Assembly (NCBI RefSeq): GCF_000243335.1
Contig: NZ_JH597773.1
Coordinates: forward strand, 4,238,115 to 4,302,114
DNA length: 64,000 nt
Direction: 5' to 3'
DNA from: Leptonema illini DSM 21528
Lineage (GTDB): Bacteria > Spirochaetota > Leptospiria > Leptospirales > Leptonemataceae
The notes below the pieces were generated by a model. That model had not been told where the DNA came from and did no database searches. It worked only from the letters and a program-made list of their open reading frames with translations. Positions 18,507 through 34,977 of this stretch are shown here, piece by piece; within the stretch, counting starts at the first letter, position 1, and each line of letters starts with the position of its first letter. The position numbers were made by a program, and so were the translations under genes.

Positions 18507-19127
18507 TCATTCAATGACCGGTTTGAGTCGTGCCTCCTCGTCCATCATCTGTGATGTGATGATGGAGGCGCGGTCTCTTGGCATCTTCGTCAGAAGATAG
18601 GGCACGATCGACGTCGTTCCTTCGGCCTCGGCGTTGCGTTCCATGCGCAGAAAGACGTCGACGATATCGGCGTCAGACCATCCGGTGAGGATGGCAACGG
18701 CGTCGGTCGGAGGCATGTTGTTCAGACGCTGCGCCATCTCGGCGATCATCTTCTCTTTCTGGGCGTCGGCGTTGCGTCGCTCTTCATAGCGTTTCTTCTC
18801 TTCAAGCAGGCCCTGTTTCAGCTCTTCATATTCTTTCTGCTTTTCTTCAAGAGAGCCTTTCTCTTCGGTAAGTCGGGCCTCCATCTCTTTCAGCTGCAGT
18901 TCGAGTTCGGCCAGACGCTCTTCTTCTTTGCGTCGCCGCTCTTCTTCAAGCAGGGCGATACTATCCGTCGTATCGCTTACGATCGGCGGCTGATCTGAAA
19001 GAAAAGGGATATACCGGCGCGCGTTGATAATGTTCCACGTATCGAGCAGATACAGGAACACTGCTATCGAGAAAAGGATGAGCAGCGTCAGATAGGCGAT
19101 CTTGATCTTAGGCGACAGCGAGTTCAT
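18507..19127 (-). CDS. flbB: Flagellar collar protein FlbB-like (MotE/MgtE_N domain)
   Basis: 206 residues: a short cytoplasmic start, one membrane helix (about 10-28, YLTLLILFSIAVFLYLL), a long Glu/Lys/Arg coiled coil (about 58-130) and a C-terminal MotE/MgtE_N-like domain (about 131-200, MAQRLNNMPPTDAVAIL). Length and layout match FlbB, the spirochete protein that organises the periplasmic flagellar collar and stator assembly. In Borrelia flbB also follows fliI and fliJ (flbA). Its ATG overlaps the stop of the small preceding gene (ATGA). The function is from family and position, not shown here. Confidence 0.82.
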   Translation of the reverse strand: MNSLSPKIKIAYLTLLILFSIAVFLYLLDTWNIINARRYIPFLSDQPPIVSDTTDSIALLEEERRRKEEERLAELELQLKEMEARLTEEKGSLEEKQKEYEELKQGLLEEKKRYEERRNADAQKEKMIAEMAQRLNNMPPTDAVAILTGWSDADIVDVFLRMERNAEAEGTTSIVPYLLTKMPRDRASIITSQMMDEEARLKPVIE

Positions 19128-19438
19128 GAGTGTTTCCGTGCAATCTCTGCGAACAGTCTGGTTCGATCTTCGAGTCGTTTCTTCTGATAATCGACGGAAT
19201 GCGGATCATAAGATTGTACCATGCGCCGCTCCGGATACAGCTTTCGCTCCAGCTCGGGTTGCGGGATCAGAGCGTACAGCTCGTCAGAGTCCCACGGATC
19301 TTCGTGCCTGTTCCTCTGTGAGTCCGGCCTGTTCAAGGTATTCGGCCCGACGACGGGCGTCTCTTGTGCGTAGATCTTCCGTTCGCTCTTCGCTTCCGTC
19401 TCCGTCGTCGAAAACAACTGACGTATCTTCTGAAACAC
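19124..19438 (-). CDS. Small protein overlapping the 3' end of fliJ and coupled to flbB
   Basis: 104 residues, highly charged, no family recognised. It starts at GTG 19438 with AGAGG 6-7 bases before it, inside fliJ and in a different frame, and ends in an ATGA overlap with flbB. It therefore overlaps fliJ by 155 bases and is the only frame filling the 157 bases between fliJ and flbB. The non-overlapping end (LYPERRMVQSYDPHSVDY, then KKRLEDRTRLFAEIARK) looks like ordinary coding sequence. A later ATG (MVQSYD) would leave only 32 residues. A frameshift joining it to FliJ is an alternative. Confidence 0.55.
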   Translation of the reverse strand: MFQKIRQLFSTTETEAKSERKIYAQETPVVGPNTLNRPDSQRNRHEDPWDSDELYALIPQPELERKLYPERRMVQSYDPHSVDYQKKRLEDRTRLFAEIARKHS

Positions 19439-19877
19439 TTGATACCTCTTTGCGCAACTGATTCAGTTCCTGTAATTCGCGACGCTCTTCGCGTCGCACT
19501 TCTTCGTTATAACGATTCAGATGTCTTTCGCGAAGTAGCTCTACGACTCGCTTTTCCCTTCGAGCCTCCAGTAGCTTCGCCTGCATCCGTTCGAGTTCGG
19601 GCCTCATCTCTTCAAGTCGATCGTGAGCCCGGGCCTTCTCGCCTTCGAGTCGATCGATATACCGGTCAAAGGTGCGATACATGTCGATCGAGAACGCTTC
19701 ACCCTGCGATCGGGCGAAGCGCTCCATCTCGTCGCGGTATTCCTGCTCGGATCGTTCGACGATACTTCGCTGATTGTTCACGCGCTCCGTGATATCGGCC
19801 ATCTCGGCCATCACCTGCTTCTGCTTGAGATCCCGGACTTTTAATAGCCCTTCGAGTGGAAAACGAAAGCGCTTCAT
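19284..19877 (-). CDS. fliJ: Flagellar export chaperone/stalk protein FliJ
   Basis: 197 residues, almost entirely predicted coiled coil, beginning MKRFRFPLEGLLKVRDLK, the typical FliJ start (F-R-F-x-L-x-x-L-L-x-x-R). FliJ is the central stalk of the FliH-FliI ATPase complex and recycles export chaperones in the cytoplasm. Usual length is about 145-150 residues. The last ~50 here (after QELNQLRKE) form a polar Asp/Glu/Arg tail that overlaps the next gene in another frame. The ATG overlaps the fliI stop by one base (TGATG). Confidence 0.88.
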   Translation of the reverse strand: MKRFRFPLEGLLKVRDLKQKQVMAEMADITERVNNQRSIVERSEQEYRDEMERFARSQGEAFSIDMYRTFDRYIDRLEGEKARAHDRLEEMRPELERMQAKLLEARREKRVVELLRERHLNRYNEEVRREERRELQELNQLRKEVSSVSEDTSVVFDDGDGSEERTEDLRTRDARRRAEYLEQAGLTEEQARRSVGL

Positions 19878-21226
19878 CAGTATTCTTCCTCAGGGGTGAA
19901 CGTCACCTGCGAGAGCTGATCCAGAGTCTGTTCGAAGGTGAAGCCCTGGCCGATGGGCTGCCTTAAGAACGCCTGGATCTGCGCCTGTCGTGCCAGATAC
20001 TGATCCAGGTCGGGATTGGATCCTCGCGCATAGGCTCCAAGCGAAACGATCTCTTCGTTTTCTCTGTACGCCGAGATCCACGTCTTCAGCTGATCGGCCT
20101 TATCTTTGTGATCGGCCGAAACGACCTGATCCATAACCCTTGAAATAGAGTCGGGAACCTCAATTGATGGATAATGATTCTTACGTGCGAGCCCGCGCGA
20201 AAGAATAATATGACCGTCAAGGATACCTCGCGTAGCGTCGGCAACCGGGTCGTTCATATCATCGGCCTCGACGAGTACGCTGTAAAAACCGGTGATCGTT
20301 CCTTTTGGAGAGACGCCCGAACGTTCGACAAGCCGGCTCAGTTTATACCAGACGGCAGGAGGATAACCGCCTGGTCCGAGCTGATCGCCCGAAGCAATGC
20401 CGATCTCGCGAAGCGCCATACAATAACGCGTCACCGAGTCCATAAGCAGGTTGACGTGCATGCCCTGATCGCGCAGGTACTCGGCGATCGTCGTTGCAAA
20501 AAGAGCGGCGTAGACCTTTTCGATGGCCGAACGGTCCGAGGTGGCGACTACAAGGACGGAGCGTTTCAGGCCTTCAGGACCGAGATCTCGCTCGATGAAC
20601 TCGCGTACCTCACGGCCGCGCTCGCCGACCAGACAGATTACGTTGGCATCGGCCCGTGTATAACGGGCGATCATGCCCAGCGTCGTCGACTTACCGACGC
20701 CCGTTCCGGCGAAGATGCCCAGACGTTGCCCGCGCCCGACGGTGAGCAGCCCGTCAATGGCCTTCACGCCCGTAACAAGCACCGAATCGATGGGCTTTCG
20801 ACTGATCGGATCAGGCGGATTGGCGTCGGCCGATCGTAACTCCCCGTGCAGGATGGGCGGCTTCCCGTCCATTGGCTGCCCCATTCCGTTCAGCATACGG
20901 CCCATCAGATCCATGGACGTATAGATGGACATGCGCCGGCCCGTATTGTGTACGACGGCCGAAGGATAAATACCCTCCGTCGAACCGAAGGGCATGAGAA
21001 TGAGCTGATTATTGCGAAAGCCCGTCACCTCGCAGAGCACCGGGCGGGAGCCGTCGGGCTCGATGCGACAGAGCTGGCCGATACTGGTGTCGGGCGGGCC
21101 GAAGCTGAGAATGGAAATGCCGTTCACCTCGACCACGCGGCCCAGCGGCAGAATGGGATCGGTTTCTTTGAGGATGGTCCGATATTTCTGGAGCACATCC
21201 TCGGGTTTTCGGAAATCGTCGAGCAT
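19877..21226 (-). CDS. fliI: Flagellum-specific export ATPase FliI
   Basis: Cytoplasmic ATPase of the flagellar type III export apparatus, homologous to F1 ATPase beta, 449 residues. Walker A is GIFAGTGVGKST (about residues 170-181). VCLVGERGREVREF and LLMDSVTRYCMALREIGIASG follow; GYPPAVWYKLSRLVERSG is the FliI/SctN signature. It is the first gene of a minus-strand run fliI, fliJ, small gene, flbB and is divergent from the PP2C gene. fliH, which often precedes it, is not here, so the flagellar genes are split in this genome. Confidence 0.96.
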   Translation of the reverse strand: MLDDFRKPEDVLQKYRTILKETDPILPLGRVVEVNGISILSFGPPDTSIGQLCRIEPDGSRPVLCEVTGFRNNQLILMPFGSTEGIYPSAVVHNTGRRMSIYTSMDLMGRMLNGMGQPMDGKPPILHGELRSADANPPDPISRKPIDSVLVTGVKAIDGLLTVGRGQRLGIFAGTGVGKSTTLGMIARYTRADANVICLVGERGREVREFIERDLGPEGLKRSVLVVATSDRSAIEKVYAALFATTIAEYLRDQGMHVNLLMDSVTRYCMALREIGIASGDQLGPGGYPPAVWYKLSRLVERSGVSPKGTITGFYSVLVEADDMNDPVADATRGILDGHIILSRGLARKNHYPSIEVPDSISRVMDQVVSADHKDKADQLKTWISAYRENEEIVSLGAYARGSNPDLDQYLARQAQIQAFLRQPIGQGFTFEQTLDQLSQVTFTPEEEY

Positions 21227-21332
21227 GGGCTTGCAGCAGCGTCATCCGTGCAGACTTCCTGTACAGTAAAAAAAGGGTGTCAGGCAATTTTTCTTGCGGC
21301 GGGCAGCCTCTGTATATCGTCTGCTGTTTAGC

Positions 21333-22208
21333 ATGGATGATTTACAGGTACTCGACGTCCTGTTCGAGCACGAACTCCTTCCCTTCGAGAGAAAAGGTGA
21401 GATCCAGGAGATGGTCCGGAAATCGACCGATCCGCTGGGAGCCTTTCTCGTAAAAAAGAAACTGCTCAGTGAACGAGCGCTGTACCGCTTCATCACGCGG
21501 GACCTCGGCATGAACAGCAAAGAGGTCTTTCGTTTCAAGGACTACGAGATTACGGGCCGCACCATCCCGAAGTACCGCACAAGCGGCGATTTTTTCGGTA
21601 TCTTCCCCCTCTCGAACAGTCGGGTTGCGGTAACACTCTGCGATGTGGCCGGCAAAGGTATTGAGGCCGCACTTCTTACGATCCATCTGGCCAATCTTTT
21701 AAACAGCGGCGTCGATATGAGCAGCGTCGTCCCTTCCTCGGTAATGAAGAAGGTCAACATTATCAGCCGGGCCTTCTTCGAGGTCGATCGTTATTCGACG
21801 TTTGTATTTATCATCCTTGATCTGCTTTCCGGTACGGTGGAGTATTCGGCTGCCGGCAGCCCGCCCCTTCTGCGGTATGCCTACCGCGAAAACGAGGTGG
21901 AGGAACTTGACACTCGAAATATTCCCATCGGTATCTTTGACGACTTCCAGTATCGGGGCAGCCGGTCAGACCTGAACCCCGGCGATGCCATCCTGCTCTA
22001 TACCGATGGTGCCTACGAAGGCGAAGATCTACAGGGGCGCGCCTACGGAATCGATCGAATGAAGCGCGTCTTTAAAAAATACGCACGACAATCGACGCGA
22101 AGTCTGCTGCGTCACCTGATCTTTGACTGGCGTCGACACTCCATCTTTCGCCGGCAGGCCGACGATACGACCTATCTTGTGCTGCGCCGGGTGAAGAAGA
22201 AGCGTTGA
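21333..22208 (+). CDS. PP2C-family (RsbU/SpoIIE-type) serine phosphatase
   Basis: 291 residues from ATG 21333. The N-terminal ~70 residues (LVKKKLLSERALYRFI) resemble small MshEN-like input domains. The PP2C domain shows SGDFFGIF, CDVAGKGIEAALL, VEYSAAGSPPLLRY, LYTDGAYEGED and the final DDTTYLVLR, with the metal-binding aspartates present. Such phosphatases dephosphorylate STAS-domain proteins in partner-switching pathways, and a STAS protein is encoded 2.3 kb downstream on the same strand. The gene is divergent from fliI. Target and signal are inferred. Confidence 0.87.
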   Translation: MDDLQVLDVLFEHELLPFERKGEIQEMVRKSTDPLGAFLVKKKLLSERALYRFITRDLGMNSKEVFRFKDYEITGRTIPKYRTSGDFFGIFPLSNSRVAVTLCDVAGKGIEAALLTIHLANLLNSGVDMSSVVPSSVMKKVNIISRAFFEVDRYSTFVFIILDLLSGTVEYSAAGSPPLLRYAYRENEVEELDTRNIPIGIFDDFQYRGSRSDLNPGDAILLYTDGAYEGEDLQGRAYGIDRMKRVFKKYARQSTRSLLRHLIFDWRRHSIFRRQADDTTYLVLRRVKKKR

Positions 22209-22237
22209 TTTTTCAACGCCGCCCGGAAAATGGGAAG

Positions 22238-23905
22238 ATGCAGAAGGCGGAGCGCAGGGTTTTTTATCTGCATGGCATCGCCGCCTCATCCGGCGATGCG
22301 TCCGGGCCTGCGGTCGTACTGCCTCCCGTTCATCGCTTCCTCCCCGAACGAGAAAGCCTGTCCGTCGATCAGGAGCGCCAGCTCCTTGAAAAGGGCATCG
22401 AGCAGGCCCTCGATCATCTGCGCCGTTTCGAAGAAGGACAGCCCGAGCCCATCCGTGAGATGCTGCATTTGCAGCAGGTCTTTCTGCGTGATCCACAGCT
22501 TGCCGACGAGATCGAGATCCAGCTGGCGGCGGGGTATAACGCTCCGACGGCGCTTTTCAGAGCCCTTGAGGTTCTCAAGAAGCGCTTTACCGAATCGGCC
22601 AACGACTTCTACAGGCAGCGCTGGGTGGACTTTGAAGACGCCGGGCGGACGGTCCTTGACATTCTGCTTGGCGTCTCTTACGAAGAGACCTGCCTTGAAC
22701 GGGTGCGCACGGCCGGCGATCGCCCCGTCGTCGTCGCCTTTGACCTTGCGCCGGCCATGTACCTGAAAATGCCGAAGCCGGCCGCCATCATTCTTCGCGA
22801 CGGAGGCCCATCGGGGCATCTGGCGCTTCTGGCCGCCAATCAGGGTATTCCCATCCTTGTGCGAACGGGACCGGCCGCCGAGTTTGAACGGATCAGCGAC
22901 GGCAACTGGATTGAGATCCACGGTGAAACAGGGGCCGTATACGAGGCGCGAGAGCGTATGTCTGACGTTATCGGCGCATCTGCTCCGACCGGTGTTCGAG
23001 AGGACAACAGTATAACTCTGGCCGATGGTCGGGTCGTGCGCCTTTCGCTTAACGCCGATGATGCCGAAACGATTCGCGAGCATGGCCTGCATCACAGAGT
23101 TTCGGTTGGATTGTTCCGTACCGAGTTTCTCTATCTTCGCGACACTTCGTTGCTTTTTGACGAGAAGCGTTCGGTGGCCGCCTATGGCGAGGTGATGCGA
23201 GCGGCCGGACAGGACGGCTCGGTGACGTTCCGGCTGCTTGATGTGGACGAAGACAAGTTCTCGGCCCATTTTTTCACGAAGCCAGGCAATCGCGGGCTGC
23301 GCGGAGCGGACTATTACCGCGCCGAGCCCGAGATCTTTCATGCGCAGATCAGATCTCTGTTTCAGGCTGCTATCGAGCATGGCTCCGGTGCGGAGCTGCG
23401 CATCATGGCTCCGATGATGCGCACGCCCGAAGACTGGCAGTTTGTTCTCTCTGCTCTTCAGGCAGAGCAGGAGCGCTCCGGCTATGAAGGCCCGTTCCGC
23501 GCGGGCATGATGGTCGAGATCCCCTCCGCTCTTTTTTCTATGGAGCGCATGCAGCATTCCGTGGATTTCTTCAGCCTCGGTACGAATGACCTCTTGCGAT
23601 ACGTCATCGGCAAGAGCCGCTCTCAACCGGCGCCCGACGATCTCTATGAGCCGGCCTTTTATCGACTGCTCTTTCACGGGATGCGACGCATAAAACGTGA
23701 GGTCTCGATCTGCGGTATGATGGGGGCGAGAGTGGAGTTTTTGCCGCTTTTTCTTGAGTTAGGCGTGACGAACTTCAGCGTGCCTCTCGGGGCCTACGAA
23801 ACCGTGCGTCAGCGGCTCATGAGCATCGATCCGCAGCAGAGGATGCTGAGGGCCCTTTTGCGTATGCAGAGCCGGGCAGAGATCCGCGAGGCTCTACAGA
23901 GTTAA
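22238..23905 (+). CDS. PTS enzyme I homologue (phosphoenolpyruvate-protein phosphotransferase)
   Basis: 555 residues with the order N-terminal, phosphohistidine and PEP-binding domains of enzyme I. The active-site His is at residue 194 in GGPSGHLALLAANQGIP, where most enzymes I read GGxTSH. The C-terminal barrel keeps GLFRTEFLYL, GMMVEIPSALF, FFSLGTNDLLRYV and the catalytic Cys in CGMMG, but DVDEDKF stands for the usual DIGGDK. No GAF domain precedes it, unlike PtsP. No HPr gene is near. It probably phosphorylates an HPr-like regulator. ATG 22238 is used; a TTG at 22205 overlapping the phosphatase stop is possible. Confidence 0.85.
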   Translation: MQKAERRVFYLHGIAASSGDASGPAVVLPPVHRFLPERESLSVDQERQLLEKGIEQALDHLRRFEEGQPEPIREMLHLQQVFLRDPQLADEIEIQLAAGYNAPTALFRALEVLKKRFTESANDFYRQRWVDFEDAGRTVLDILLGVSYEETCLERVRTAGDRPVVVAFDLAPAMYLKMPKPAAIILRDGGPSGHLALLAANQGIPILVRTGPAAEFERISDGNWIEIHGETGAVYEARERMSDVIGASAPTGVREDNSITLADGRVVRLSLNADDAETIREHGLHHRVSVGLFRTEFLYLRDTSLLFDEKRSVAAYGEVMRAAGQDGSVTFRLLDVDEDKFSAHFFTKPGNRGLRGADYYRAEPEIFHAQIRSLFQAAIEHGSGAELRIMAPMMRTPEDWQFVLSALQAEQERSGYEGPFRAGMMVEIPSALFSMERMQHSVDFFSLGTNDLLRYVIGKSRSQPAPDDLYEPAFYRLLFHGMRRIKREVSICGMMGARVEFLPLFLELGVTNFSVPLGAYETVRQRLMSIDPQQRMLRALLRMQSRAEIREALQS

Positions 23906-24002
23906 GACTCAATCTCATTATCTCAGGGAGGGTGCTAATTGAGAGAGCGCCGCCGAGAAAAATTATGTTGAGGATTGCCTTTAGAACGCAGATTATAGAA
24001 AG

Positions 24003-24467
24003 GTGGACGCCCTTTTTAAAATGATTGATCGGATGCTGCATGCCATCCCTCCTAACGTGCAGAAGATGGTGCGCCTCGGGGTGCTGGCCGTCTGGGGCGT
24101 CCTGGTCATCTTCGTTGTCATCTGGTCTTTTCGTGCTGGAAGCGATTCCGCTCCGCAAACGGGCGACGACATGTACCTGTCGAATATCAAAGAGAAGGTG
24201 TACAGAGATCGCATGAAGCGTGATCCGGCCGATGTGACGCTACCCGATCTGAACGAACTCAGCAAAGAGGAGGTCGCTCCGCTGTCGGTGTATGAGCCTG
24301 AGTCGACTCCGCCGCGGGGTGATGAGCCTTCTCCTGAAATATCGCCTCTGCCGATGAAGGGCGAAGACGACGACGTAATCTTTCCCGAAAAAGGCGTGCG
24401 TCCGGAACGGCGTGGGGAGCCTGCTCCGAAGGCGTCTGAGCCCGCCTTGATGTCTCCGGAGCGATGA
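24003..24467 (+). CDS. Single-span membrane protein with Pro/Glu-rich tail
   Basis: 154 residues, no family recognised. A short amphipathic N-terminus (MIDRMLHAIPPNVQKMVRLG) leads into one membrane helix (about residues 26-44, LAVWGVLVIFVVIWSF), then a polar tail rich in Pro, Glu and Asp with no predicted fold. The start is GTG 24003; ATG 24021 is an alternative. It lies between the enzyme I homologue and the VWA-STAS gene, all plus strand, so it may be part of that signalling run. Confidence 0.6.
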   Translation: MDALFKMIDRMLHAIPPNVQKMVRLGVLAVWGVLVIFVVIWSFRAGSDSAPQTGDDMYLSNIKEKVYRDRMKRDPADVTLPDLNELSKEEVAPLSVYEPESTPPRGDEPSPEISPLPMKGEDDDVIFPEKGVRPERRGEPAPKASEPALMSPER

Positions 24468-24513: not shown

Positions 24514-26106
24514 ATGAAATTCAGTCTTCACCTCGAACAGAGGCAGGTTTCGGATCAGGAACCCGCTCTTCAGCATCTGCTGGTAAGGCTGGTCTCGCCG
24601 CCGGTCGATGAAGCGGGTCCGCACACCCCTCTGCGCGTGGCGCTGGCCATCGATCGCAGCAAATCGATGCATGGCGAAAAACTGGCCTCGGTGATTGAAG
24701 CGGCGAATGCTCTCGTCAACTGGCTTACACGCAACGATTCATTGGCCGTCGTCGCTTATGATACGAACGTCGAGGTGATCCAGCCGCTCCTGCCGCTCAC
24801 CGACAAGTTTTCGGTAACGCAGCGCATCGAGTCCATTCGAGCGGGCTCTTCGACGAATCTGAGCGGTGGCTGGCTACAGGCACTGCGTATGATAGAAGAA
24901 GAGCCGTCCGCAGAGAAAACGGCCGTGCGCCGGGTCATACTGCTGACCGACGGTATGGCCAATGCCGGCATAGTCAATCCGGCCGAGCTGCGACGCATCG
25001 CCCGCGATCATTTGCAGCGCAATATCAGCACGACGGCGATGGGATTCGGGCGTGACTTCTCGGAGCTGACGCTGCGCGAGATTGCCAGCGAAGGCGGCGG
25101 CAATTTCTACTTTATCGAGGGGCCCGAACAGGCCAGCTCTGTCTTTTTTCAGGAGTTCGGCGAGATCGCAGCCCTGTACGGACAGGGCCTTGAGATCCGA
25201 CTGCATTTTGCTCCGGGGGTGACGGTAAAAGAGCTTCTGAATGAGATCCCCCATGAACAGCATGGCAGCGAACTGATTCTGCGGCCCGGCGATGTTCGTT
25301 CTGATGATCTGATGAATCTCGTGCTCGTCATCGAGATCGATGGCCGCTCCATTTTGCCCGAACAGCCCCTTGTGACGGCGGAGTGCTCGTTCTATAACGT
25401 GCGTCAGGGGGCGAAGATGGAGCGGCTTTCGGCCGTGGCCTCCGCACAGGTCGGAACTCCGACCGAAGAATTCGACCCCGAGGTGCGCCTCGAAGCCATC
25501 ATCGCCTCAGCGGGCCGCGTGCTGCTCGAAGCATCCCGCCTTTCCGCCGAGAAAGACCTTGCCTCGGCTCGTGAACTCATCCGACGTAAGCGCCAGCAGA
25601 TCGAAGAATCGTTTGATCTGGACTCCGAGCTGCTGCACCGACTGCACGAACGACTGGGCATGACGGAACGCAATCTCGACGAGAATATCGGTCTTCTCAG
25701 CAAGCGCCTGATGGCAGAGGCCGAATCGATGGGGCGCCGGGATCTGCGCCGGGTGTCGGGATACCATGATCAGATTTTTGAGCTGACCCTTTCGGAGCAG
25801 CTGGACCTCTACAGATGCCCTGATCTGAAAGGGGCGGTTCGGCGGGCCATGGAAAACGGCTATCGTTTTGCCGTCTTTGACATGACAGATCTGTCTTATG
25901 TCGACTCATCGGGTATTGGAGCCCTGATTCAGATCTTCAACTGGCTGAAAAGTCGGGGTGGTCTGCTTGTTCTCTCTAATGTGCAGGGCGGCGTGGAACG
26001 CATCTTTCAGATGAGCAAGCTCGACGAGTTTTTCGTGCTACGGGACAGCCCGCTTTCGGCGCGCATGCTCATCGAAGAACTGCTTGCCGGGCAGGGAGGA
26101 AATTGA
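24514..26106 (+). CDS. VWA domain-STAS domain fusion protein
   Basis: 530 residues, no signal peptide. An N-terminal von Willebrand A domain (about 38-210) has a complete MIDAS: DRSKS at residues 47-51, the Thr in SSTNLSGG, and Asp in LLTDGMANAG. A middle beta-rich and helical region (about 215-430) follows. The C-terminal STAS domain (about 435-525) has FDMTDLSYVDSSGIGALI, where the second Ser (residue 466) matches the phosphorylation site of anti-sigma-factor antagonists. The fusion is unusual. With a PP2C phosphatase upstream this suggests a partner-switching regulator. Its stop overlaps the next start (TGATG). Confidence 0.85.
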   Translation: MKFSLHLEQRQVSDQEPALQHLLVRLVSPPVDEAGPHTPLRVALAIDRSKSMHGEKLASVIEAANALVNWLTRNDSLAVVAYDTNVEVIQPLLPLTDKFSVTQRIESIRAGSSTNLSGGWLQALRMIEEEPSAEKTAVRRVILLTDGMANAGIVNPAELRRIARDHLQRNISTTAMGFGRDFSELTLREIASEGGGNFYFIEGPEQASSVFFQEFGEIAALYGQGLEIRLHFAPGVTVKELLNEIPHEQHGSELILRPGDVRSDDLMNLVLVIEIDGRSILPEQPLVTAECSFYNVRQGAKMERLSAVASAQVGTPTEEFDPEVRLEAIIASAGRVLLEASRLSAEKDLASARELIRRKRQQIEESFDLDSELLHRLHERLGMTERNLDENIGLLSKRLMAEAESMGRRDLRRVSGYHDQIFELTLSEQLDLYRCPDLKGAVRRAMENGYRFAVFDMTDLSYVDSSGIGALIQIFNWLKSRGGLLVLSNVQGGVERIFQMSKLDEFFVLRDSPLSARMLIEELLAGQGGN

Positions 26107-27986
26107 TGCCGATCTTTTCCCGCGATCCATCGTCAGAGTACTGCACGCAGGGCAGCCTGGTGCCGATAATACGGGCTGAGATGTTTAATATTGGAAAAAG
26201 AGCGAGCGGCACTCTCAAGCGGGTGCTCTTTGCGATCAGAGCGGCCTCCGTTTCCGGGGGGCTTCTGGCGCTTCTGCTCTTTTCCGTACCGCTTCAGGCC
26301 GAGATCTACAAGCCGCCCGGACAGGGAGCCGGTCAGAACATGGAGGGGACGGGCTATGGCGTCGACACAGGCGTCAAAGACGTCGATGGCGACTATTACG
26401 TGACGATCACTCCTACCTTTGAGCTCCCGCTTTTTGGTTTTCGCATCGGCCTTCAGGTGCCTCTTGAAGTGCTCGTTTATGATCGTGACCCGCAATCTGG
26501 TGAAAAAGTCCCTTCGCTCCGCCCCGGCATGTACAATGAGAATTCTGACTACATGAAGCTGGTGAAGTACGTGCGCAAGGGCACGCATCTTTACTATAAT
26601 CCCGACGATCTCTTTAACTGGTCTTTTTTCTATGGTGAGATGACGGACGGCTATATCGGTCATCGTACCATCATACATCGTTACGTAAGCAGCTATGATC
26701 CGACCTTGTTTCGCCCTGGCCTGATGGCCGACATCAACAACAACTGGGGCGGGGTCGAGGTATTTCTATCGGACGTCTGGACGCGCGAGGTGCGCGGTGG
26801 ACGGGGATACATCCGCCCCGTCGGTATCTTTGTTACCGGATGGAATGCCTTTGTTGCGCGTGATTTCAACAGCCGCGATGTGGCCCGCTCTGTGGCCGAG
26901 AACAGGCGTGCGCGCAGAGAATATCTGTTTCAGGAGCGCGTGCCCGATCAGGGACAGGGCGGCGCTCTGCGTGAGCATCTCTATCGTCCACTGCGCGAAG
27001 ATCTCGAAGACAGCAAGATCGAATTCGTCGAGGTGAAAGATCCGGTGACGGGCGAAACGAAGATTGAGCCGGTGCTGAAAGAAGATCTTCCACCGAGCAA
27101 GCTTGATCCGACTCTGGAAAAACCGCCCGATCGTAGCGATACAAAGAAATCAAGTAAACTCGATCAGGGCTTCTGGAGTCGCTGGGCGATCGGGGCGACG
27201 CGCGTGATGGACTCCGATGCTCCGCTTGAGCTTGAAGTGGACGGTTCTGAGAACCTTGTCGTTGATCCTTATACGCTGCTGCCTCGTTCGATTGAAACGG
27301 AAAATCTCACTATCGAGGGGGTCGATACGGAGTTGCGTCTTTCTCCGTTTACCTGGCTTGATCTGACGGCCTATATCGACCGCAACCGCATCAAAGGACT
27401 CGATAATGCCGAAGGCACGCATATGGGCCTGATCTTCGAGATGCAGTTCAGCTCGCTCTTGCGGTGGTTTGTACGACCGGAATACCGTGAGGCGACGTCC
27501 AACTATCTGCCGACCTACTTCGACTCCTACTATGCAGTCGAACGCACGACGTATCTTCCGTCAGGAGCGACAAGCAGCACGACGCCGAAGCTGGCCTATC
27601 TGAAGTCGTTGCCCGACGATGGCGTAATCACGAAGGGGTACTTTGTCAATTCGACCCTGGAGTTCGTTGAATACGTAACTCTTGAAGCGGAATACCAGGA
27701 CTATGACGGTCCGAATAACTCGGCCGTGATGGTCGGCCTCTATATTCCCGATATGGGCGGCATCTTTGCAAACGGATACTACAAGAAGAAAGAATTCGAT
27801 AAGATGAAAGAGGCCTTTATCGTAAACGAGAACGCCCTGATGGCCGCCGAGGCCGGACTGCGCTTTTTCGGCGGTATGTACATCAAATATACGTTCCGGC
27901 GCACCTGGGTCTATGAAGAGGCCGATGGTCGCTATACGCCTGTCGATGAATCGGGCGTGGGCTTCGGCTACAGCTCCTCGCTTTAA
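26106..27986 (+). CDS. Predicted outer-membrane beta-barrel protein
   Basis: 626 residues. ATG 26106 has GGAGGA 5 bases before it and overlaps the VWA-STAS stop by one base, so translation is coupled. A hydrophobic segment (about 47-65, SGGLLALLLFSVPLQA) ends in a signal peptidase-like site; the preceding 45 residues are unusually long, and the internal ATG at 26181 would give a more normal signal peptide. The mature protein is rich in Tyr, Phe and Gly with alternating strands (LEFVEYVTLEAEYQDY) and ends in a strand-like GVGFGYSSSL, as expected of an outer-membrane barrel. A charged linker (about 255-350) interrupts it. Function unknown. Confidence 0.7.
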   Translation: MPIFSRDPSSEYCTQGSLVPIIRAEMFNIGKRASGTLKRVLFAIRAASVSGGLLALLLFSVPLQAEIYKPPGQGAGQNMEGTGYGVDTGVKDVDGDYYVTITPTFELPLFGFRIGLQVPLEVLVYDRDPQSGEKVPSLRPGMYNENSDYMKLVKYVRKGTHLYYNPDDLFNWSFFYGEMTDGYIGHRTIIHRYVSSYDPTLFRPGLMADINNNWGGVEVFLSDVWTREVRGGRGYIRPVGIFVTGWNAFVARDFNSRDVARSVAENRRARREYLFQERVPDQGQGGALREHLYRPLREDLEDSKIEFVEVKDPVTGETKIEPVLKEDLPPSKLDPTLEKPPDRSDTKKSSKLDQGFWSRWAIGATRVMDSDAPLELEVDGSENLVVDPYTLLPRSIETENLTIEGVDTELRLSPFTWLDLTAYIDRNRIKGLDNAEGTHMGLIFEMQFSSLLRWFVRPEYREATSNYLPTYFDSYYAVERTTYLPSGATSSTTPKLAYLKSLPDDGVITKGYFVNSTLEFVEYVTLEAEYQDYDGPNNSAVMVGLYIPDMGGIFANGYYKKKEFDKMKEAFIVNENALMAAEAGLRFFGGMYIKYTFRRTWVYEEADGRYTPVDESGVGFGYSSSL

Positions 27987-30791: not shown

Positions 30792-30925
30792 CTGTCTTCA
30801 GTCAAGCGAAAAGTGCAAACGCATATCGACCGTGCTCCGGTTCAGTCGCTGTGCGGCTAAAAAGACCGGACCCCGTTCTTACATTTCTGCTGGAAAACCA
30901 GGCCCGTCACCGAATTGTGTTCTTC

Positions 30926-32815
30926 ATGGCACAGTCGGCAAGCGATCTCTTTCCGCCCTCCGATCTTAAACTTTTTGAAGAATTTCCTTCTTCTTCACGC
31001 TCAGCGTGGGAGCAGGAAATCGCCCGCACACTTGAAAAACAGGGAAAGGCCGGCCTTTCTCTGAACTGGGCTCTTCCGGACGGCATCTCACTCCCCCCTT
31101 TTTTACTTGAAGAGGATCTGGCCGAGTTGCCTTTTATCGGCGACTTTCCTGGCGTTTACCCGTTCACGAGGTCGACGCAGCGCGGCGGTCAGACGTGGTC
31201 GGCGCAGTATCCGCTGCAAGGGGACGGCAGTCTTGCCGATCGTCTGAGCGAGGCGCAGCGTCGCGGAGCGGATGGCGTGACGCTATTCGTCGGCGGAACG
31301 TTCCCGGCCGTCCCTTACGGCAGAGGACGTAACGACGCGGCCGCCGCTCTTGCACAGAGCGAGCTTCCCGTGCAGTGCGTCGGTTCGACCGCCGACCTTG
31401 TCGCGTTAGTCGGCGCATTGAAAAGTGGATCTGTTAAAAATACGAATTCATCGATTCTCATCGACCCCTTCTCGGACGTCCTGATCGGCGGCGACTTTGC
31501 TCTGAACGAAGCCGATATTTACGGCGCCATAAAGGCCGCTTTCGCGCAGATGAAGATTCCGGTCGGCGCCGTAAGGGCCGATCTCTTTCATAATGCCGGC
31601 GCCACTCCTGCCCTGGAGCTCGGCCTGACTCTTTCTGCGGCGGCCGATCTTGTTTCTGCTTTAGTCGACGCCGGTATGTCGCCGGTCGATGCTCTGAGTT
31701 GTATAACGCTCTTTCAACCTGTCGGAGCCCTTTATTTCGTCGAGATGGCGAAGTTCCGGGCGACGCGAAGGCTTTCGGCTATGGTTGCAAAAGGCTTCGG
31801 CGTGACGTCGTACGAAAGACCGGTGCTTGCTCAGTCCGCCGTGACGTCGCTTTTCAACGTCAGTCTCTATGATCCTTATACGAACATGCTGCGCGTCTGT
31901 ACCGAGGCGATGTCGGCCGTTCTGGGCGGCGCCTCTTCGGTGCTTGTACTGCCTCTTGATGCACCGTTCGATCGGGACGATGAATTTACCCGACGCATGG
32001 CGATCAATACGCAGCTTGTACTGCGTCATGAAAGCTATCTTGATCGCGTATCTGATCCGGCCGGCGGATCGTATTATATCGAAGCGGCCACAGATCAGAT
32101 TGCAGAGGCCGCCTGGAAGATATTCTTAGAGATCGAAGCCGAAGGCGGATATCGCAAGGCCCTCGAGAAGGGCAGCGTCCAGGCCCGTCTCAAGCAGGCC
32201 GGCGAACAGCGTCTGGATGCCCTGGCTCGTCGTAAAGAGATTCAGCTCGGCGTGAATCAGTTCCCGAACAATACCGAAATCCTGCGAGATTCCGAGTATA
32301 AAGACGCCTCTATTCCGGCGTTACCCGAAGCGAAGCAAGGGCGTTATGCGTCGGCGCCGATCTTCAGAGGGGCCGTGCCCTTCGAGCGTCTGCGACTGCA
32401 GACCGAAGAATTCGCGAAAAAAGGACACCGTCCCTTTGTGCAGCTTCTACCGTTTGGCAATCTATCGATGCAGCGAGCGCGTGCCGCCTTTATCGGTAAC
32501 TTTTTCGGCTGTGCCGGTTTCGCTGTGAACGATCCGGGATCTCTGGAAACGCCCGAGGCATGTCTGGCCTTCGCAAAAGAGGCCGCTGCAAAGCAGAAGA
32601 TCGACGCCTTCGTTCTCTGCTCGGCCGACGCCGAGTATCTGCCTGCGGCTACCGCCATCATGGCCGAGCTGAAGGCGATCGGTGTTCCGGTCATTCTTGC
32701 CGGGAATCCCGCCGAAGTCGAGGCGTTGAAGTCCTCCGGAATCGAAGATTTTATCCACGTTCGTCGCAACGTGTACGAAACACTGAGCGAGTATCAGAAG
32801 AGGTTCTGTGCATGA
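30926..32815 (+). CDS. mutA: Methylmalonyl-CoA mutase small (beta) subunit
   Basis: Non-catalytic partner of the B12-dependent mutase, 629 residues from ATG 30926. The TIM-barrel half shows [19 protein letters not shown] and [29 protein letters not shown], matching the large subunit. The C-terminal B12-like domain is degenerate: the DxHxxG motif is absent, as expected for the small subunit. Its stop overlaps the mutB start as ATGA. The upstream 75 bases of open frame were excluded because [15 protein letters not shown] is a more plausible start. Confidence 0.93.
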
Positions 32816-34977
32816 GACCGAATTTTGCCAACATCCCCTATACGAAAGAGCCTTTCGCTCAGATCAGCGAAGAGGAATTCGATCGTCTGCTTGCCGACGA
32901 CGTCTGGACGACGCCTGAGGGCATTCCCGTAAAACCCGTTTATGATCGCAGGGCTCTTGCGGGAATGGAGCATCTGCACTATGCCGCCGGTATCGCTCCG
33001 TTTCTTCGCGGACCATACCCGACCATGTACACGCTGCAGCCGTGGACGATCCGTCAGTACGCCGGCTTTTCGACGGCTGAAGAATCGAACGCCTTCTATC
33101 GTCGCAACCTGGCCGCCGGGCAGAAAGGGTTATCCGTAGCCTTCGACCTGGCGACGCACCGCGGTTATGACTCCGATCATCCGCGCGTCGTCGGCGACGT
33201 CGGTATGGCCGGTGTGGCCATCGATTCGGTCGAAGATATGAAAATCCTCTTCGATCAGATTCCGCTGGATTCGGTATCGGTTTCGATGACGATGAACGGC
33301 GCGGTGATTCCGGTTCTGGCCTTCTTTATCGTAGCGGGCGAAGAACAGGGCGTTCCGCATGAGAAGTTAACCGGAACGATTCAGAACGACATTCTCAAAG
33401 AATTCATGGTGCGGAATACGTATATTTATCCGCCCGCTCCTTCGATGCAGATCATCGCCGATATCTTCGCCTTCACATCGAAGAATATGCCGAAGTTCAA
33501 CTCCATCTCGATCTCGGGCTATCACATGCAGGAGGCGGGAGCGACGGCCGATATCGAGCTCGCTTATACGCTCGCCGACGGCATGGAATACATCAGAACC
33601 GGTCTGAAGGCCGGGCTGAGCATCGACGAGTTCGCTCCCCGCCTGTCGTTTTTCTGGGCGATCGGCATGAATCATTTCATGGAAATCGCAAAGATGCGCG
33701 CCGGACGACTGCTCTGGGCGAAGATTGTGAATTCGTTCGGGCCGAAGTCGGCGAAGTCGATGGCCCTGCGAACGCACTGCCAGACGTCGGGATGGTCGCT
33801 TACGGAGCAGGATCCGTTCAATAACGTTACACGAACCTGCGTCGAGGCCCTGGCTGCCTCGCTCGGTCATACGCAATCCCTGCATACAAACGCCCTTGAC
33901 GAGGCCATCGCTCTGCCCACCGACTTCTCGGCCCGCATCGCCCGCAATACACAGATCTATCTGCAAGAAGAGACGGGGATCACAAAGGCCATCGATCCGT
34001 GGGCCGGCTCCTATTACGTCGAAACGTTAACCCACATGCTTGCCCGCCGGGCATGGAAGCTCATCGAAGAGGTCGAAGGCCTCGGCGGAATCGCAAAGGC
34101 CATCGAAACGGGCCTGCCGAAGATGCGCATCGAAGAGGCTTCCGCTCGCAAACAGGCGCGCATCGATTCGGGGCGCGACGTCATCGTCGGTGTTAACAGA
34201 TTCAAGGCCGACCGCGATAAACCCGTCGATATCCTGGCCGTCGATAATACGGCCGTACGTGGGGCGCAGATCCGCCGCCTTGAGAAGATCCGTGCGGAGC
34301 GTAATTCGACCGACGTTGAGGCGGCGCTACAGGCGATCACGAAATGTGCCGAAACGGGGCAGGGCAACCTGCTCGATCTGGCCGTTCAGGCCGCTCGCAA
34401 GCGCGCGACGCTGGGCGAGATCTCTGAGGCGATGGAGAAGGTCTTCGGACGTTACCGCGCCGTTATCCGGACGATCTCCGGAGTGTATTCGAGCGAGATC
34501 ATGAACGACAACTCCTTTAAAGAAGCGAAGGATCTGGCCGATCGTTTCGCTAAGAACGAAGGCCGTCGCCCGCGTATCCTTGTTGCGAAGATGGGACAGG
34601 ACGGACATGACCGCGGAGCGAAGGTCGTCGCCACAAGCTTCGCCGACATCGGTTTCGACGTCGACGTCGGCCCGCTTTTTCAGACCCCTGAAGAGGTGGC
34701 GAAGCAGGCCATCGAGAACGACGTGCATATCCTCGGCGTATCGTCGCTTGCCGGCGGACATCGTACCCTTGTGCCCCAGGTCATTGACGAATTGAAGAGG
34801 CTCGGTCGCGACGACATTCTCGTCATTGCAGGGGGCGTTATCCCCCATCAGGATTACGAAGCCCTCTATAAGGCCGGCGTGGCCGCCGTATTCGGACCGG
34901 GCACGGTTATCGCCTCAGCGGCCGCTCAGCTGCTGAAGCTTCTGTTAGGCGAAGATCCGGCATCACGCTCGGCATGA
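32812..34977 (+). CDS. mutB: Methylmalonyl-CoA mutase large (alpha) subunit
   Basis: Adenosylcobalamin enzyme that interconverts (R)-methylmalonyl-CoA and succinyl-CoA, used for propionyl-CoA from odd-chain fatty acids, Val and Ile. The 721-residue length is normal. The substrate-binding barrel includes [20 protein letters not shown] and [20 protein letters not shown]. The C-terminal cobalamin domain has GQDGHDRG with the B12-ligating His at residue 599, GVSSLAGGH and [13 protein letters not shown] stands 8 bases before the ATG. With mutA and meaB it forms a complete mutase unit; the epimerase and propionyl-CoA carboxylase are not in the window. Confidence 0.97.

Follow-up and report, generated by a model that had tools for sequence, protein, structure and literature searches.

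A conserved VWA-STAS fusion protein of the class Leptospirae as a candidate phosphorylation-switched adaptor

The VWA-STAS protein and the systems it resembles

STAS serines are phosphorylated by kinases of the RsbW-like HATPase type, and FHA domains are phosphothreonine readers. The phosphorylation site of the STAS protein SpoIIAA is Ser58 (PMC3517971), and SpoIIE phosphatases are known to act on STAS serines (PMC11418112). The VWA proteins ArnB and vWA2 of Sulfolobus engage in phosphorylation-dependent interactions, with ArnB being bound by the FHA protein ArnA and phosphorylated in its C-terminal region (PMC6509490). A neighbour of the gene studied here belongs to the family of ImpL63, which in Leptospira serves as an inner-membrane marker and is not surface-exposed (PMC2698987, PMC2780356). 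In the open-access literature searched we found no description of the VWA-STAS family treated below, and nothing relevant on VWA with STAS or on partner switching in Leptospira.

We analysed a 64,000-nucleotide stretch of the Leptonema illini DSM 21528 genome (the window). It contains a gene (24514..26106, + strand) for a 530-aa protein that is conserved along its full length in the class Leptospirae and is predicted to be cytoplasmic, as neither a signal peptide nor a transmembrane segment was seen. A sequence-only reading had described this protein as a VWA-STAS fusion with a complete MIDAS, and domain matches bore this out. The VWA domain spans residues 42-206 (24637..25131, + strand; PF00092, 6.3e-19) and the STAS domain residues 418-511 (25765..26046, + strand; PF01740, 8.6e-18). 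All five MIDAS residues (D47-R-S49-K-S51, T114 and D146) are present and are invariant across the 26-28 homologues aligned.

The STAS domain scores above the cut-off of the anti-sigma factor antagonist model TIGR00377 (61.4 bits, cut-off 53.45), and its best PDB match is SpoIIAA. It carries a DSSG motif at residues 464-467, and D464-S465-S466 (25903..25911, + strand) shows no variation among 28 aligned sequences, which are 37 to 58% identical to the window protein. The intact serine of the earlier reading is present, but the residue aligned with SpoIIAA Ser58 is S465, the leading serine of the two, and not S466 as had been proposed. This numbering includes a step of one, since the PDB chain 1auz starts one residue shorter than SpoIIAA. 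By the alignment, invariance of the MIDAS and DSS residues at this level of identity is far beyond chance.

A beta-strand region (residues ~221-309) and helices (residues 322-403) lie between the two domains (25174..25722, + strand) and, judging from an AlphaFold2 model and PDB fold matches, may complete an ArnB-type trunk. The order of elements in the model agrees with such a trunk; the pTM is 0.47 and domain placement is of low confidence. With Foldseek, the top PDB matches of the trunk were 8s05, 4fx5 and 5a8j over ~420-460 columns, with rmsd values of 17-18 Å and TM scores of 0.3-0.4, so that the domains are not rigidly superposed. By fold, the N-terminal 400 residues came closest to ArnB and vWA2 of Sulfolobus and to 4fx5 of Catenulispora, which were also among the sequence matches of the protein.

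The protein shares with ArnB and vWA2 (8s05, 5a8j) and with 4fx5 a MIDAS-intact VWA domain, probably followed as in these by a beta-sandwich and a helical region, and differs from ArnB in carrying a fused STAS domain. With SpoIIAA and RsbV it has in common the STAS fold, the DSSG phosphoserine motif and a genome that also encodes HATPase kinases and SpoIIE-type phosphatases. Unlike in these systems, the STAS domain here forms the C-terminus of a VWA protein of 530 aa, and no gene for a kinase, phosphatase or sigma factor is conserved alongside.

Descent of the family and homologues with other modules

Full-length VWA-STAS proteins were found in 19 of the 22 genomes of the window's own family (f1), in 6 of 8 genomes of the second family of its order (f2), in several f3 genomes and in one f6 genome. 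A seventh f2 genome (G026) has the gene split into two frames (L069:4906-6442), through either an assembly error or a real break. No fusion was detected in genus g21, in f4 or f5, or in the rest of the phylum, whose matches were STAS and VWA proteins encoded apart; families outside the class, tried as further carriers, gave STAS matches and a few VWA matches.

We also searched a collection of named genomes, where an alignment query returned 180 matches and a single-sequence query none. The best 30 loci (L092-L121) all combine VWA and STAS and come from MAGs, mostly labelled Leptospiraceae, Leptospirales or spirochaetes. Among 49 further homologues from other phyla, STAS was present in one, from Candidatus Riflebacteria. 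In a tree of the VWA part, all 26 Leptospirae rows group together with 99% SH-aLRT support, and the f1, f2 and f3 sets are separated, as descent predicts. Because of this grouping and separation, the VWA-STAS fusion is, on the tree, an ancient and vertically inherited family of the class Leptospirae.

The Riflebacteria homologue (L126:4706-6844, 713 aa) has the homologous VWA trunk and a C-terminal STAS domain with DSSG, and differs from the window protein in an RsbW-like HATPase_c_2 domain between the two. It falls beside the Leptospirae clade on the VWA-only tree, on a long branch, and is the one example of this chain. By its domain order it is a natural fusion in which a member of the VWA family is joined to a kinase of the type acting on STAS serines. 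In all four Chloroflexi homologues tested (e.g. L123 and L130), the homologous trunk likewise bears a C-terminal phospho-signalling module, which is FHA in place of STAS. Taken together with the ArnB matches, the kinase fusion and the FHA proteins make the family look like one protein-binding trunk that bears different phospho-signalling modules.

Gene neighbourhood of the fusion

The sequence-only reading had placed the fusion in a strand run that begins with a PP2C phosphatase, passes through an enzyme I homologue and continues into an outer-membrane protein with a coupled start. The phosphatase, enzyme I and VWA-STAS genes do lie on the same strand, but the run had omitted a gene (24003..24467, + strand) upstream of VWA-STAS. 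Its product is small, has a single membrane helix at the N-terminus and a tail rich in proline, and weakly matches the NCBIfam LIC_11485 family (NF047776), below the cut-off. It is found upstream of VWA-STAS in 13 of 17 f1 relatives, on the same strand and often separated from it by a further gene, which codes for a TPR protein where tested. Of the four exceptions, two lie at contig ends. Upstream genes of 143-173 aa at two f2 loci were considered as its relatives and gave no match.

The downstream gene (26181..27986, + strand) encodes an envelope protein of the ImpL63 family (NF047543, 5.1e-90) and so, by family, a relative of an inner-membrane marker, where an outer-membrane protein had first been proposed. 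Its 302.6 bits fall short of the equivalog cut-off of 1000, which makes it a divergent relative and a non-orthologue of ImpL63 by the NCBI rule. The coupling of its start is uncertain: ATG 26106 overlaps the VWA-STAS stop, but ATG 26181, just before the signal-peptide helix, is an equally possible start, and in relatives the two genes are mostly 13-181 bp apart. The suggested tie to an envelope protein gene is supported: in 18/18 f1 relatives (17/17 fetched, and G018 by coordinates) the VWA-STAS gene is followed on its own strand by an ImpL63-family gene. In one f1 relative an inverted gene is inserted between them. This adjacency is no proof of interaction. The ImpL63 family is present in f2 genomes, unlinked to VWA-STAS, and was not detected in f3-f6 genomes; the link is therefore a trait of f1 and ImpL63 an unlikely ancestral target, so that the linkage probably does not reflect what VWA-STAS originally did. 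Three f3 genomes instead have a RelA/SpoT gene immediately before VWA-STAS, in the same orientation (L061:3342-5447, L062:10681-12735 and L065:6965-9022).

The phosphatase and enzyme I genes were themselves correctly recognized. The PP2C gene (21333..22208, + strand) encodes a SpoIIE-type phosphatase (PF07228, 2.8e-38) that keeps its catalytic aspartates. The following gene (22205..23905, + strand) encodes a divergent, PtsI-like enzyme I (TIGR01417, 1.1e-55; 189 bits, below the cut-off of 342) that keeps the His and Cys positions. Its product is the only EI-type protein found in the genome, a 1036-aa PEP-utilizer being pyruvate phosphate dikinase. The usual GGRTSH of enzyme I is replaced by GGPSGH, with the His kept in all orthologues, and a single HPr gene is located at a distant site (genome position 1895964). 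The N-terminus of the phosphatase (21333-21510) weakly resembles an MshE-type c-di-GMP-binding motif (NF053729, 13 bits, cut-off 38); two orthologues reach 27 bits against the same cut-off.

Both genes lie outside the conserved VWA-STAS cluster. The synteny check in relatives placed neither a PP2C nor an enzyme I gene beside VWA-STAS at any of 33 loci, so the three-gene set of the sequence-only reading is not supported. Both genes have orthologues in the family. PP2C followed directly by enzyme I was found away from VWA-STAS at 10 fetched relative loci, a pairing seen in at least 10 relatives, and most of these loci show divergent fliI, fliJ and flbB genes, as does the region left of the window PP2C gene. 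The conserved left block is flbB-fliJ-fliI, divergent from PP2C-enzyme I, and the right block comprises the gene at 24003, VWA-STAS, the ImpL63-family gene and the gene at 27913. Because each block is conserved separately in relatives, the window is the meeting point of the two, at a 97-bp gap (23906..24002, + strand; placed by the synteny of both blocks), a junction seen in one genome of the genus. On this gene order, the position of PP2C and enzyme I beside VWA-STAS is an accident in one genome. The gap holds a weak promoter-like match (23939-23966); in the promoter and terminator scan the count of such matches was near chance, and for that reason no operon claim rests on the junction scans.

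In the left block, positions 18507-23905 hold a PP2C and enzyme I unit divergent from fliI-fliJ-flbB and kept in about 10 relatives, which couples a phosphatase linked to flagellar genes with an enzyme I of the PTS. At one f3 locus an unrelated HAMP-SpoIIE gene lies ~4 kb from VWA-STAS on the opposite strand. Further right of the VWA-STAS block, several relatives have a gene for a cNMP-binding protein and methylmalonyl-CoA mutase genes; in the window, the cNMP-binding protein gene is succeeded by a pair of such mutase genes (30851-34977).

A possible mechanism and its alternatives

The genome has ten HATPase_c_2 matches, six of them above the cut-off, and all lie outside the window, in agreement with the earlier statement that it holds no HATPase gene. 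This is not odd, given that the genome encodes RsbW-like kinases at other sites. Two of the matches sit in STAS-kinase-SpoIIE clusters, and standalone RsbW-like kinase genes lie at genome positions 2243216, 3961889 and 3472024. SpoIIE phosphatases number 25, and a random genome position has such a gene within 2.5 kb in 3% of cases and within 5 kb in 6%. Among the neighbours identified at 34 VWA-STAS loci, we recognized no conserved family of kinase or sigma genes; the only such link is the in-chain kinase of Riflebacteria. As an obligate partner we considered P0007, the best standalone RsbW-like kinase, which is common in f1 but was undetected in f3 genomes that have VWA-STAS. The PP2C protein at 21333-22208 was considered as the specific phosphatase and is no better placed than the 24 other SpoIIE genes.

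We lean towards reading the VWA-STAS protein as a cytoplasmic partner-switching adaptor that is controlled by phosphorylation and has an ArnB-like trunk. The STAS domain would be the input, with S465 phosphorylated by an RsbW/SpoIIAB-type HATPase kinase encoded elsewhere and the phosphate removed by one or more of the 25 SpoIIE-type phosphatases. The phosphorylation state of S465 would then decide whether the ArnB-like VWA trunk binds a target through its MIDAS. In f1, the target or beneficiary may well be the envelope unit that the flanking genes encode, with the small membrane protein on one side and the ImpL63-family protein on the other.

Several observations argue for the adaptor: the invariant DSS and MIDAS residues, the STAS score above the antagonist cut-off with SpoIIAA as best match, the Riflebacteria kinase fusion, the FHA homologues of Chloroflexi, the likeness to the phosphorylation-dependent ArnB and vWA2, the kinases and SpoIIE phosphatases of the genome, and the ImpL63-family adjacency in all f1 members examined. 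The domains and motif thus support the phospho-switch joined to VWA that the first reading had suggested. That S465 is phosphorylated, which enzymes add and remove the phosphate, what the trunk binds and how the cell responds are inferred. Counting against the adaptor, on the loci and the model at hand, are the lack of a consistently linked kinase gene, the mismatched spread of P0007, the restriction of the ImpL63 link to f1 and the low pTM of the model.

A conventional anti-anti-sigma factor would use its unphosphorylated STAS domain to capture an anti-sigma kinase and free a sigma factor, with the VWA part as sensor or localiser. The TIGR00377 score and the complete STAS-HATPase-SpoIIE clusters of the genome speak for such a role, but no linked sigma or anti-sigma gene was seen at the loci, where the recurring neighbours are envelope genes in f1 and RelA/SpoT at the three f3 loci. 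No anti-anti-sigma factor is known to have an ArnB-like trunk, and we consider this role rather unlikely. We are similarly hesitant about a separate class of partner-switch effector, in which a phosphoserine STAS domain would gate an ArnB (Sec23/24-like) trunk. Together with the small membrane and ImpL63-family proteins, this trunk would build an envelope complex, and the switch would not control a sigma factor.

That an envelope protein gene is always its neighbour in f1 would also suit a structural scaffold for an envelope complex, with STAS as an unphosphorylated docking or lipid-related module of the MlaB or SulP type. Both DSS serines are however invariant in 28 homologues from several families, the MlaB model matched one homologue at an E value of 0.098 and did not match the window protein, and the Riflebacteria fusion contains a kinase domain; a scaffold of this kind is improbable. 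A dedicated operon, in which the neighbouring PP2C protein would dephosphorylate VWA-STAS and enzyme I would be the third member, fits the shared strand, the lack of a long gap in this genome and the known action of SpoIIE phosphatases on STAS serines. Against it, the arrangement recurs at none of the 33 relative loci, PP2C and enzyme I form a conserved pair of their own, usually beside fliI, and with 25 SpoIIE genes the chance of such adjacency is ~3-6%. We regard the operon as very improbable. Where one genome holds 25 PP2C genes, PP2C-STAS adjacency means little without synteny, and the interest of the locus rests on the VWA-STAS family and less on the proposed operon.

If the adaptor proposal is true, bacterial partner switching would act here on an ArnB-like protein-binding scaffold and not on a sigma factor, and ImpL63, a much-used yet unexplained leptospiral marker family, would gain its first functional partner. 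A structure model of the ImpL63-family protein (mean pLDDT 51, low confidence, and not used as evidence of location) has a signal helix and long beta-strands in a barrel-like arrangement, and Foldseek matched it to porins. Given the use of the family as an inner-membrane marker on the one hand and these porin-like fold matches on the other, its location deserves a re-check.
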